Shown here piece after piece: positions 3,689 to 10,324 of a DNA stretch of 64,000 nt. The stretch's first letter is position 1. Each line of letters opens with the position of its first letter. Source of the stretch: Acidimicrobiia bacterium (lineage in GTDB: Bacteria > Actinomycetota > Acidimicrobiia > Spongiisociales > Spongiisociaceae). The notes beneath the pieces are model-generated. The model did no database searches and was not told the origin of the DNA. It worked only from the letters and a program-made list of their open reading frames with translations. The DNA lies in assembly GCA_009841105.1 (NCBI GenBank), contig VXMM01000057.1, forward strand, positions 1 to 64,000, given 5' to 3'. Both the position numbers and the translations under genes were made by a program.

Positions 3689-4165
3689 TCAGCCTTCGTA
3701 AGGCCGGACCGCGAGCACTGTGACTGTGAACATGCCTCCGGGCGCCTGGTAGGTGACATCATCGCCTACCACCGCACCCACCAGTGCGGTGCCCAAGGGA
3801 CCCTCCGGAGAGGCCAGTAAGTAGCCCGGAACCCGGTTTTCGGGAATGGCCACGAGGTATTCGTCCTCGAAGCCGTCTTCGTCCATCAGCGTGGCGACCG
3901 AGCCGATCTGCACGGTGCCGTCGCTGGCGGCCTCGCCGACAGTGGAATTGTCTAGTAGATGCCGGAGCTTGCGTATCCGAGCCTCCATGAGGCCCTGCTC
4001 GGTCTTGGCGGCGTCGTAGTCAGCATTCTCCCGGATGTCACCGTGTGACCTAGCCTCGGCGAGCCGCTCGGCCATATGGCTACGTCCCGCCGTGGTGAGC
4101 GTGTCGTATTCTTCTTGGAGTTTCCGGTACGCGGCAGGGGTCAGCCAGGTCTCAGGGGTGCTCAT
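3689..4165 (-). CDS. greA: Transcription elongation factor GreA
   Basis: A 158-residue GreA, the normal family length. It binds the RNA polymerase secondary channel and stimulates transcript cleavage to rescue backtracked complexes. The N-terminal antiparallel coiled coil (residues about 1-75) carries the tip motif GDIRENADYDAAKTEQ, with the catalytic acids D43 and E46 matching the positions known in GreA. The C-terminal FKBP-like domain starts near residue 80. The open frame runs upstream to 5017, but that part is antisense to selD and unlike any GreA, so ATG 4165 is the start. It is divergent from selD across 144 nt. Confidence 0.95.
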   Translation of the reverse strand: MSTPETWLTPAAYRKLQEEYDTLTTAGRSHMAERLAEARSHGDIRENADYDAAKTEQGLMEARIRKLRHLLDNSTVGEAASDGTVQIGSVATLMDEDGFEDEYLVAIPENRVPGYLLASPEGPLGTALVGAVVGDDVTYQAPGGMFTVTVLAVRPYEG

Positions 4166-4309
4166 ACCGGCCAGGATACCCGTTGGGATGGCCTCGCCGA
4201 CCGGGCGCCGGACCAGCCGGGCCGCCCCGGCCAGGTTCGCCCTGCATCGTGCCAAACTCCTGCCCTGGGCGGAATTGTCCGCCGGGACACATGTGGAAGG
4301 AGGTGAGAC

Positions 4310-5353
4310 ATGTCCGAGATCCGACTTACGTCGTTCTCGCCGGGCGGCGGCTGAGCGTCCAAGCTCGGCGCTGACGAGCTGGCGCAGGTTCTGCGCCCCC
4401 TTCGGACTCACAACGCGACCTCTCACCCCGACCTTCTGGTTGGGATCACCACTTCCGACGATGCGGGGGTATTCCGCCTGGACGAAGACCGCGCCCTGGT
4501 GCAGACGGTGGACTTCTTCACCCCGGTCGTGGATGCGCCGTACGACTGGGGAAGGATCGCGGCCGCCAACGCCCTGTCGGACATCTACGCGATGGGCGGG
4601 CGGCCGCTCACGGCCCTCCAACTGGTGGGATGGCCCAGATCCAAGTTGCCGTTCGAGGCATTGAGCGAGGTCATGGCCGGCGGGGCCGACGTGATGGCCA
4701 TCGCCGAGGTCACGATCGCGGGCGGACACTCGGTTGAAAACGAGGCACCCGTATACGGGTTCGCGGTCACCGGAACCGTGTCTCCGGCCGGGGTCGTCAC
4801 CAACGGCACTGCCCGACCGGGCGACCTCATAGTGCTCACCAAACCCCTCGGTACGGGTGTAGCTGCTTCCGCCCTCAAGGCCGGGTTGGCCGATCCTGCC
4901 TTGCGGGACGCGGCGGTGGGGACCATGGTTGCGCTCAACGGGCCGGCCTCCGCGGTGATGGTGGAAGCGGGTGTGACGTGCGCTACCGATGTAACGGGTT
5001 ACGGGCTGGTAGGTCACCTCCGGGAGATAACGACCGCATCCGGGGTGTCGGCGCGCCTCGATATGGATGCGGTTCCGGTAATGGCCGGGATAGCCGATCT
5101 GATCGAGGCAGGGGTATATCCGGGCGGTAGCCGGCGGAACTTGGAGTCCGCACGAACCTCCCTCAGGACGTTTCGGAGCCGCACGGAACAGAAAATCTTG
5201 GCGGATGCTCAGACCAGCGGGGGCCTGCTGATGGCGGTTCCCCGGCGCCGGTCGGCCCGGCTGCTCGAGAAGCTCCGGCCGGTTGCGCCGGCGGCTACGG
5301 TCATAGGCGAGTTCATGCCCGCAGCCGGAGACCCGTTGATCGAGGTGGTATGA
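4310..5353 (+). CDS. selD: Selenide, water dikinase SelD, itself a selenoprotein (in-frame UGA = Sec15)
   Basis: SelD makes selenophosphate from selenide and ATP, the selenium donor for selenocysteine and selenouridine. Read from ATG 4310 (AGGAGG at 4298-4303, 6 nt spacing), the frame meets UGA at 4352-4354 after 14 codons and then stays open to 5353. This gives 347 residues, the usual family length. The UGA falls exactly where SelD has its active-site Cys or Sec: GGG-U15-ASK18-LG, with K18 matching the essential lysine. Downstream, TSDDAGVF, VQTVDFFTPVVDAPYDWGRIAA, ALSDIYAMGG, GGHS, TKPLGTG and TDVTGYGL are all family motifs. Starting at the first in-frame codon after the UGA would remove the catalytic residues. 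Translation needs SelA, SelB and tRNA-Sec, which are not in this window. The ferredoxin gene overlaps the stop by 4 nt. Confidence 0.9.
4359..4382 (+). promoter_or_regulatory. Candidate bacterial SECIS hairpin after the selD UGA
   Basis: Five nucleotides past the UGA the mRNA can form CC(a)AGCUCG-GCGCUGA-CGAGCUGG: eight base pairs with one bulged A and a 7-nt loop that begins with G. Bacterial SECIS elements are hairpins immediately 3' of the UGA with a G near the start of the loop. The loop here starts about 13 nt after the UGA, slightly closer than usual. The pairing is seen in the sequence; function is inference. Confidence 0.5.
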
Positions 5354-7346: not shown

Positions 7347-7379
7347 TAGGGTGGGTGCCGGGGAGTCCGACCCGCCCTA
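7347..7379. terminator. Bidirectional terminator-like hairpin
   Basis: TAGGGTGGGT (7347-7356) pairs with ACCCGCCCTA (7370-7379), ten pairs with one G-U type mismatch around a 13-nt loop. It sits between two convergent genes and overlaps the stop codon of the FtsH-type gene. There is no clear T-run. Confidence 0.45.
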
Positions 7380-9674
7380 GTCGGCTCTTTCGGCGTCTTC
7401 CGCTCCGACAGTCTCGCGGACCGGAGCTGTGGCCGGTAGGCCGTTACCCTCCACCCCCTCCGGAGCGGCCAGGCCGAGGGAGGAGCGATGATCTTCCACG
7501 CTCACCGCCGCAAACCCGACCGGCTTCTGCTTGGTAACGGTTCCGGCTTCGGTCCCGATTATCTCGCCCACTTCGTTCCCGGAGATCGTTTGCTTCTCCT
7601 GGAGCCGAGTCGCCACGTTGAACACCGCCACCTTGTACTCATCGAGCATCTCGTAGACCTCGTCGTAGAGCCGTCGGAGCTGTCTCTCGATCTGCTGGGA
7701 CATCGTCTCGACGATACGGTCGGTCGGGTCGGGGGGCTGGTCGAGAGCGTGACGAGGCAGACCGGCGCTCGAGGCGATGTTGTTGCCCATTCCCCAGACA
7801 CCGACCATCCGGCTGCTGATCGTGGTGGCATTCCTGAGGTCCGCGCCGACCCCCATGGAGTTGTCATCCTTGAAGAACATCCGCTCACCCGCCAGGGCGG
7901 CTAGCGACACCTTGATGTCGATCTCGAGTTCGGTCTTCCACTGTACGAAACGGTCCTCGAGGGCGATGTAAGAGACGAACCCGCCTATGTCGCCGCGCCG
8001 CTCGATGGTGGCTACATCGATGTTGGCATGGTCCTTGAGCAGGTGCGCGGCCACCGCGTGGCTGGCCTCGTGGATGGCGACCGCGAATTCCTCCCGCTCC
8101 ACGTACTCGAAGCCCTCAGCCGGCCCCATTTCCTTAAGGGTCTTGGCTTTCCAGATGTCATCCCACCCGATGATGTCGCGGTCAGCTCGCTGGGCCAGGA
8201 TGAGCGCCTCGTTGACCAGATCCTTGATCTTGGCGCCGGAGTAGTACGGAGTTTTGGCAGCGAGCTCATCGATCTGTTCGTCGCTGATGTTGTGGTTGAC
8301 CTTGGCCAGATAGCCCTCGAACGTGCGGGCACGGCCCTCCTTGGTCGGGAATCCGACTTTGTAGATGCGGTCGATCCGTCCCGGCCTCAGCAGGGCCTGG
8401 TCGAGAACGCTGGGCAGGTTGGTGGCCATCATGATGAAGATGCGGTACTTCGGTGGAGGCTTGGGTTTGATACCGAGCGCCTTGCGGGCCTTGTTGGTGA
8501 TCCCGCGTGGCTTCTTCAGCCCGGATATCTCGGTCAGGAGGGCTTGGAGGGTACCCATACCGCCGCCGCCGCCGCCCATCATCATCACTCGGTTGACCCA
8601 CGTTCCGGGAAGCCCTTCCGGTTCGCCGGAAGCCGGACTCGTCCGGGGCGCATCCGCTTCGATGATGCTGAGGGACTGCGGGCTCAGGTAAGCGGAACCG
8701 TTGCAACCCATCCCGGCGCTGAGCGGTGTGGTGGGTTGTGGCGGTCCTCCTCCCTGAGCGAGGGCGCCCCGGTTACCGAGGGCGTCGGCCTCGTCGAAGA
8801 AGACCACCACGCCCCCATGGCGCAAAGCCAGTTTGCGGAGCTTCCGGAACAGACCCTTCACCTTCAGGATGCCGACCCCCATGAACATGGCTTGGAAGGC
8901 CCCGGGATCGACGAAGACGAAGGGGAGGCCGACCTCACCCGAGGTGGCCTCGGCGATGAGGGTCTTCCCCGTTCCCGGGGGACCCCACAGCAGGATTCCG
9001 CCGGGTACATAGCCACCCTTGGCTTCGATCTCATCCGGTTTCTCGAGGAACCCGACGTTCTCCCGGACCAACTCGAGCACATGGTCCTGACCCCAGACAT
9101 CGGAGTACCGGGTCTCTATCTCCTCCGGCATGATCGTGTCGACGCCCCCTCGGGACAGGAACCAGAAGAGGGCGGCGAATTGCATGATCAGGAAGAGGGG
9201 ATAGAACAGGAACATGATGAACTGCTGCAGGTTGCGGGCCAGGATGCGGGGGAGTTGGATCACTGCTTCGATCGGTCCGTTCACGTCGGCCACGAAGTAG
9301 TCCACCACCGAGCCCAGGATCAGCAGGAAGATCAGGATCCGGACGTAGCGGCCGAGCCGGAAGCGGGTCCACGGCTTGAAGCGTCGGTGAGCCTGGCGTT
9401 CGATCCCCCCGAAGAACCCTTGGGCCCAGAACCGGTTGTAGCGGGCCCACTTCTCCGAGACGTAGTAGTGGATCTGGCGGAGCAACTCGACGGGCAGGGC
9501 GATCATAAGCACCCGACCGAATGTCTCGTTCCAAGTGTCCCCGAGGGCCTGGCCGAAGGTGGTGAACGGGGCGGTGATCTTGGCGCTGATCAGGACACCG
9601 AGGAAGAACAGGATCAGCACCACGAACTTCATGCGGTCCCATGTCGGGGAGCGCCTGCGGACGTCTGTCTTCAT
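7377..9674 (-). CDS. FtsH-type AAA+ membrane metalloprotease with enlarged AAA domain
   Basis: A 765-residue ATP-dependent zinc protease of the inner membrane. Three hydrophobic segments lie before the ATPase (about residues 16-32, 110-128, 152-173), one more than in standard FtsH. Walker A GPPGTGKT is at 231-238, Walker B VVVFFDEAD at 289-297 and the arginine-finger region MMATNLPSVLDQALLRPGRID at 416-435. The protease domain has HEASH (HExxH) at 535-539, with a likely third zinc ligand D612 in GVGADLRNAT. Two insertions are unusual: about 70 residues after Walker B (303-372, Pro/Gly-rich, ending in six Gly) and about 20 basic residues near 387-409. ATG 9674 is preferred for its AAGGA Shine-Dalgarno. 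A lipoprotein gene precedes it by 11 nt in the same operon. Substrates unknown. Confidence 0.87.
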   Translation of the reverse strand: MKTDVRRRSPTWDRMKFVVLILFFLGVLISAKITAPFTTFGQALGDTWNETFGRVLMIALPVELLRQIHYYVSEKWARYNRFWAQGFFGGIERQAHRRFKPWTRFRLGRYVRILIFLLILGSVVDYFVADVNGPIEAVIQLPRILARNLQQFIMFLFYPLFLIMQFAALFWFLSRGGVDTIMPEEIETRYSDVWGQDHVLELVRENVGFLEKPDEIEAKGGYVPGGILLWGPPGTGKTLIAEATSGEVGLPFVFVDPGAFQAMFMGVGILKVKGLFRKLRKLALRHGGVVVFFDEADALGNRGALAQGGGPPQPTTPLSAGMGCNGSAYLSPQSLSIIEADAPRTSPASGEPEGLPGTWVNRVMMMGGGGGGMGTLQALLTEISGLKKPRGITNKARKALGIKPKPPPKYRIFIMMATNLPSVLDQALLRPGRIDRIYKVGFPTKEGRARTFEGYLAKVNHNISDEQIDELAAKTPYYSGAKIKDLVNEALILAQRADRDIIGWDDIWKAKTLKEMGPAEGFEYVEREEFAVAIHEASHAVAAHLLKDHANIDVATIERRGDIGGFVSYIALEDRFVQWKTELEIDIKVSLAALAGERMFFKDDNSMGVGADLRNATTISSRMVGVWGMGNNIASSAGLPRHALDQPPDPTDRIVETMSQQIERQLRRLYDEVYEMLDEYKVAVFNVATRLQEKQTISGNEVGEIIGTEAGTVTKQKPVGFAAVSVEDHRSSLGLAAPEGVEGNGLPATAPVRETVGAEDAERAD

Positions 9675-9685
9675 GCTGAGCTTCC

Positions 9686-10324
9686 TTATCGCCGGGTGTT
9701 CACGATCCACGACTCGACTGCCGCCACGATCTGCTCACCCTCCCGCGCGAAGCACTCCAACGAGCAGCCGGCTGCCATCGAGTACAGTTCGGTGGCCTCC
9801 GGATTGGTGACCGCCAGCACGTAAACGAGCCCCTGGCTCTGGCCGTCCTGGGCCGTGAGCCCCACCGTGGCGCCGATGCCCTCGAAGTCCCTCCCAAACG
9901 TGAAGTCCCACGTGTCGATCTCCACTCCTTGGCCCGGGTTGGTGACGTCATAGGCCGAGACCGCCATCAAGCGTCGTGAGAGCAGGTCCTTCTCCGCGGG
10001 GCTGATCTGGCGGATTATCTGGGCGCCTACCGGGAACGGGGAGGTTGCCGCATCGAGTGACAGGTTGTTCAGGTCGCGTCCCGCCGCGCCGTCGAACGCC
10101 ACGAAGCTGATCGGCCGGTACCCTCCGAGGTCCGGCACGAACGGCACCGGAGCGATCAGGGACAATTCATCGGCCCGGTAGAGGTTCCAGTCATTGGGAA
10201 GTTTGAAGAGCGACCGGTTGTCCGCGTCCCGGTAGACGGTCGTGTCAGGATCGTCCCCGCCGCACGCGGTCAACAGCATGGCCCCGGCCAGTACAAGGAT
10301 CGCGATTCTTGAGTGTGCTCTCAT
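9686..10324 (-). CDS. Lipoprotein of unknown function upstream of the FtsH-type protease
   Basis: A 212-residue secreted lipoprotein: basic start MRAHSR, hydrophobic stretch and lipobox LLTAC, with the lipidated Cys at residue 21. The mature part begins Asp-rich and contains a motif SLFKLPNDWNLY reminiscent of actinobacterial PsbP/LpqN-like surface proteins. A late CSLECF pair of cysteines could form a disulfide. It ends 11 nt before the FtsH-type gene on the same strand, so the pair is probably co-transcribed and the lipoprotein may assist or be handled by the protease at the membrane. No function can be assigned. Confidence 0.7.
   Translation of the reverse strand: MRAHSRIAILVLAGAMLLTACGGDDPDTTVYRDADNRSLFKLPNDWNLYRADELSLIAPVPFVPDLGGYRPISFVAFDGAAGRDLNNLSLDAATSPFPVGAQIIRQISPAEKDLLSRRLMAVSAYDVTNPGQGVEIDTWDFTFGRDFEGIGATVGLTAQDGQSQGLVYVLAVTNPEATELYSMAAGCSLECFAREGEQIVAAVESWIVNTRR

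Follow-up and report, generated by a model that had tools for sequence, protein, structure and literature searches.

The window analyzed here, the whole stretch of 64,000 nucleotides, comes from an Acidimicrobiia metagenome-assembled genome of 3.05 Mb in 69 contigs that is estimated to be 97.5% complete. It carries a gene for selenide water dikinase, selD, which is preceded by a divergently oriented gene for a GreA-type transcription elongation factor, a neighbor outside the selenium system, and is followed by a gene for a thioredoxin-like [2Fe-2S] ferredoxin (Table 1). The selD frame starts with ATG 4310, runs through 14 codons to an in-frame TGA (4352-4354) and continues for 332 open codons to the stop TGA 5351-5353. 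When the internal UGA is read as selenocysteine (Sec), the product matches SelD over its full length (NCBIfam TIGR00476, 378 bits against a cut-off of 125, residues 5-313; PRK00943, 351 bits against a cut-off of 299). Aligned with the solved SelD structure 3u0o, the UGA coincides with the catalytic Cys of the GAGCGCK motif, and it matches the same catalytic position in the alignment with homologs from the order. The Lys three residues downstream is present in all 110 SelD loci inspected; Sec15 and Lys18 correspond to Cys17 and Lys20 of the Escherichia coli SelD. All these elements had been described in the first-pass annotation of this DNA, namely a strong Shine-Dalgarno sequence 6 nucleotides from the start, 14 codons, the UGA at the catalytic Cys/Sec site with the Lys behind it, and an unbroken SelD thereafter, and each of them is seen in the sequence or in the alignments. 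The expectation that an ordinary gene caller would start at 4499 and lose the active site is also confirmed: the mechanical ORF caller reports a selD of 284 amino acids that begins with GTG 4499 and lacks both U15 and K18.

Table 1. Features of the selD locus in the window and selenium-related genes on other contigs (C) of the same genome
Feature	Position	Strand	Basis or remark
GreA-type transcription elongation factor	3692-4165	-	Pfam PF03449 and PF01272; divergent from selD
Shine-Dalgarno AGGAGG	4298-4303	+	6-nt spacer to ATG 4310; kept before the ATG of genus homologs
selD (selenide water dikinase); 347 residues, counting Sec for the UGA	4310-5353	+	family match and alignments
In-frame UGA (TGA), predicted Sec15, catalytic position	4352-4354	+	3u0o alignment; conservation in the order
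AAG, conserved Lys18	4361-4363	+	Lys in 110/110 SelD loci inspected
Predicted bacterial SECIS apical hairpin GGCGCA-GGUUC-UGCGCC	4381-4397	+	MFE -11.3 kcal/mol; comparative pairing and covariation
Thioredoxin-like [2Fe-2S] ferredoxin, 161 aa	5350-5835	+	four Cys (CX7C, CX3C); ATG overlaps selD stop (ATGA)
FtsH-like AAA+/M41 metalloprotease-type gene	7377-9710	-	
tRNA-Sec	C14: 19612-19702		77 bits, cut-off 47; ARAGORN anticodon tca (UCA)
selA	C13: 10647-11732		371 bits
selB	C13: 8827-10596		320 bits in total; adjoins selA
FdhA, molybdopterin oxidoreductase (formate dehydrogenase alpha subunit)	C21: 49436-50698		one internal TGA; second selenoprotein

Conservation of the UGA and a predicted SECIS hairpin

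The class was sampled with 395 genomes, of which 276 yield a SelD-type match. Among the matches listed, a single internal TGA is found in the SelD genes of 107 of the 118 order genomes; the remaining 11 contain no internal stop, and the two of these that were read (L037 and L039) have TGC at the Sec codon. The TGA is retained throughout the genus (10 of 10 genomes) and in all 5 other genomes of the family that were matched, and the nearest named relatives are Acidimicrobiia metagenome-assembled genomes. Judging from these sequences, most SelD proteins of the order contain Sec. In selD, the pN/pS ratio is 0.13 for codons 2-14, 0.14 for codons 16-31 and 0.31 for the remainder of the gene. The purifying selection on both sides of the TGA, together with its recurrence in 107 genomes, puts an in-frame TGA at this position beyond chance. 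A Sec-unaware caller is likely to start SelD internally and drop the active site in about 100 genomes of the order, which amounts to a probable systematic annotation error.

Some genomes of the order, such as those with loci L037 and L039, lack the UGA in SelD and nevertheless encode selB, suggesting that SelD switches between its Sec and Cys forms while Sec decoding is kept. The possibility that Sec-containing SelD tracks the presence of selB was rejected because genomes of the class with Cys-type SelD also possess selB.

Downstream of the UGA, we identified a candidate cis element that is not part of the first-pass annotation, a hairpin that can be drawn either with the 5-nt loop GGUUC on 6 base pairs or with the 3-nt loop GUU on 7 base pairs, the loop lying 32-33 nt past the UGA. 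Published criteria for bacterial SECIS elements (bSECIS) call for a loop of 3-9 nt, a stem of 4-16 bp, a G within the first two positions of the loop, a distance of 16-37 nt from the UGA and an MFE of -7.5 or lower (PMC13188914), and the selD hairpin agrees with them in loop, stem, leading G, spacing and MFE. All 7 pairs form at the fixed distance in 58 of 76 Sec-type (TGA) SelD loci from many phyla and in none of 33 Cys-type loci (Fisher p 3e-15, a value that is indicative only because related sequences are not independent). Among 53 distinct sequences, 37 cells are changed on both sides of a pair, compared to 8.1 in shuffles; when the partner strand is shifted by 1-3 columns, the pairing falls from 93.5% to 29-57%. 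Hairpins of 7 bp are not rare in the GC-rich window, where 49 of 1,593 TGA triplets (3%) precede one that fits the model, so that it is the comparative evidence that carries the SECIS assignment; folding of a longer stretch of 51 nt gives a z of only -0.96, and the Rfam scan of the window returned no hit. The hairpin is a predicted bacterial SECIS element that would be weak evidence if taken alone. Another hairpin, AGCUCG/CGAGCU at 4362-4380 (columns 11-29 past the UGA), was considered as the SECIS core and rejected, given that its pairing does not persist beyond the order and that some of the pairs form equally in Cys-type genes.

Selenium use in the genome and in the class

The search of the genome for selA, selB and tRNA-Sec that the first-pass annotation had proposed recovers all three (Table 1), and the Sec system is complete and of the ordinary bacterial type. 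As far as the assembled sequences show, the outcomes named there as refuting the proposal do not arise: selB and tRNA-Sec are encoded in this nearly complete genome, and the relatives in the genus all have TGA rather than TGC or TGT. A second gene with an in-frame UGA encodes FdhA; ordinary gene calling would split this gene as well. NIDSCNRT-U-HAPSVAGL, the canonical context in formate dehydrogenases, surrounds its UGA, which recurs in relatives from the genus, the family and the order. The FdhA hairpin has the loop GGUCU both in the source genome and in related genomes, near the GGUUC of selD, and a further ORF downstream of FdhA resembles an NADH-oxidizing subunit. The UGA-containing FdhA implies that the Sec machinery is kept for more than SelD and refutes, for the source genome, the notion of SelD as the only selenoprotein. 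In the source genome, the selenouridine synthase gene ybbB was not found, and neither was yqeB (TIGR03309), the marker of the selenium-cofactor trait (YqeB/YqeC), which is thus not indicated; with both missing, Sec is the only known use of selenium that we detect. Given the FdhA with its UGA and the failure to find ybbB, the proposal that Sec-SelD is kept only for selenouridine or as the sole selenoprotein does not hold here.

Three other readings of the TGA have to be weighed against selenocysteine. A TGC or TGT misread in sequencing or assembly, or decay of selD to a pseudogene, would be in keeping with a metagenome-assembled source, with Cys codons that are one base away and with the 11 stop-free homologs of the order, two of which were read as TGC; but the identical in-frame TGA in 107 independently assembled genomes already refutes this explanation, the gene is under constraint on either side of the TGA (pN/pS 0.13-0.31), and the SECIS hairpin accompanies TGA rather than Cys codons, so we consider it extremely improbable. 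General reassignment of UGA in this lineage, or its reading as some other amino acid, would likewise account for a frame that is open once the TGA is taken as a residue. However, 6 of the 10 window genes checked stop at TGA, with selD and the ferredoxin gene among them, and the genome encodes Sec machinery, which leaves this reading with next to no probability. Finally, translation might restart at GTG 4499, with the 284-aa product being functional and the upstream part acting as a leader, as the output of the ORF caller would have it. Such a product would be devoid of residue 15 and of the Lys18 shared by all SelD loci inspected. Constraint is stronger on codons 2-14 and 16-31 than on the remaining codons, and the strong Shine-Dalgarno sequence lies ahead of 4310; a functional restart is hardly credible.

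A selenocysteine-containing SelD encoded by 4310-5353, with the UGA decoded via SelB, tRNA-Sec and the hairpin, is the best explanation of the observations as a whole, and from the sequence data we regard it as almost certain. The original proposal that SelD is a selenoprotein is thereby supported by the family match across the UGA, the presence of selA, selB and tRNA-Sec, the conserved TGA and the covarying hairpin. On the basis of family knowledge, we infer that SelB, loaded with Sec-tRNA-Sec, would bind the mRNA hairpin and decode the UGA, and that Sec in the flexible N-terminal loop and Lys18 would handle selenide and produce selenophosphate, which SelA could then use to convert Ser-tRNA-Sec to Sec-tRNA-Sec. 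The same machinery would insert Sec into FdhA. The cycle would be self-feeding in the sense that Sec is required for the enzyme that makes the Sec donor, as is known for Sec-containing SelD in general. Accordingly, the statement of the first-pass annotation that Sec is used to make the donor for Sec stands with respect to the cycle, but it is not the whole story, since the machinery also serves the UGA-containing FdhA.

The streamlined genomes of about 1 Mb in this class (family f12; genomes G005-G053) also encode UGA-type SelD (locus L135:1165, C1, of G033; listed f12 matches). Their SelB proteins, 558-565 aa long, are divergent and score below the family cut-off, but are full-length. An apparent truncated SelB in these genomes was dismissed: the 401-aa match is EF-Tu, encoded next to an EF-G gene, and these genomes do encode a full-length SelB of about 560 aa. 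Sec-containing FdhA was not found in the f12 genomes, where the only molybdopterin-family match is a NuoG-like protein of about 780 aa without a TGA. In these genomes, Sec decoding may owe its persistence to SelD.

The ferredoxin gene next to selD

The ferredoxin ORF that overlaps the selD stop matches PDB 1f37 with an E-value of 3.2e-12 and falls below the NF041612 equivalog cut-off (45 bits against 150); it has the C-terminal segment of such ferredoxins as well as the four Cys ligands, which are kept in the order homologs aligned. In 35 of the 40 order genomes that have both genes, the ferredoxin gene lies within 1.3 kb of selD, downstream or divergent, and the occurrence of both arrangements argues for a functional link beyond a single operon. 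In families f5 and f6, the distance is about 1.2 kb, with an ORF for an MFS-type transporter in between at the one locus read (L045).

Across the order, the ferredoxin is present in 40 of 50 SelD-positive genomes and in 4 of 15 SelD-negative ones (p 0.0003). Five of these 15 contain selB above the cut-off, and in them the absence of SelD may simply reflect an incomplete assembly; of the 10 genomes that lack both SelD and SelB, 4 still encode the ferredoxin (p 0.017, a value that ignores phylogeny). A strict dependence of the ferredoxin on selenium use is weakened by these 4 genomes and by the 10 SelD-positive genomes without the ferredoxin. The coupling to ferredoxin that had been put forward as a novelty is therefore borne out as a conserved gene adjacency, but adjacency alone does not bear out a mechanism, and a role in selenium metabolism, as suggested by gene order and co-occurrence, is only a lead. 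How selenium is delivered to SelD has been stated as an open question (PMC13188914), and the adjacent ferredoxin would be a concrete candidate for that delivery. It is conceivable, although we consider it rather unlikely, that the ferredoxin is an unrecognized partner in selenium metabolism, for example as an electron donor that maintains either selenium in the form of selenide or the selenol of SelD in its reduced state.

Comparison with known systems

The ferredoxin shares with the thioredoxin-like [2Fe-2S] type (PDB 1f37; clostridial NF041612) the C-terminal CX3C segment, the GPxxVVYPDGVWY core and the four conserved Cys, and differs from it in the N-terminal extension, the length of 161 aa, the CX7C spacing of the first pair, the score below the cut-off and the location beside selD. 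The selD hairpin resembles the bSECIS model (PMC13188914) in its short stem, its small loop with a leading G followed by G/U, and a UGA spacing within 16-37 nt, with the loop, at 32-33 nt, toward the far end of that range.

The E. coli SelD, of the Cys17 type, belongs to the same family, has the motif GAGCGCKIS and aligns over the full length; it has Cys where Sec stands here, and Sec decoding persists in E. coli even though its SelD contains no Sec. In the source genus, the second Cys of the motif is replaced by Ser (U-A/T-S-K), a change also seen in SelDs of other phyla. At this position, 77 Sec-type loci have 38 Cys and 29 Ser, and Cys is found in 29 of 33 Cys-type loci; the second Cys is thus absent from 39 of the 77 Sec-type loci but only from 4 of the 33 Cys-type ones, a pattern that would fit a lower requirement for this Cys where Sec is present.

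FdhA and SelD have been reported as the most widespread bacterial selenoproteins, and SelD has been discussed as maintaining the Sec trait (PMC1794560). Searched for papers that mention Acidimicrobiia together with selenocysteine, the literature gave one match, a sponge metagenome study. Sec-containing SelD has long been known. The protein described here would share with this type (TIGR00476) the Sec at the catalytic site in the N-terminal loop, the Lys three residues on, the full domain and the bSECIS inside the ORF, and would differ from it in lineage only. This agrees with the earlier view that Sec-SelD is known in other bacteria and that the novelty lies in the lineage: it is a known kind of gene, with a new member in an under-described lineage.
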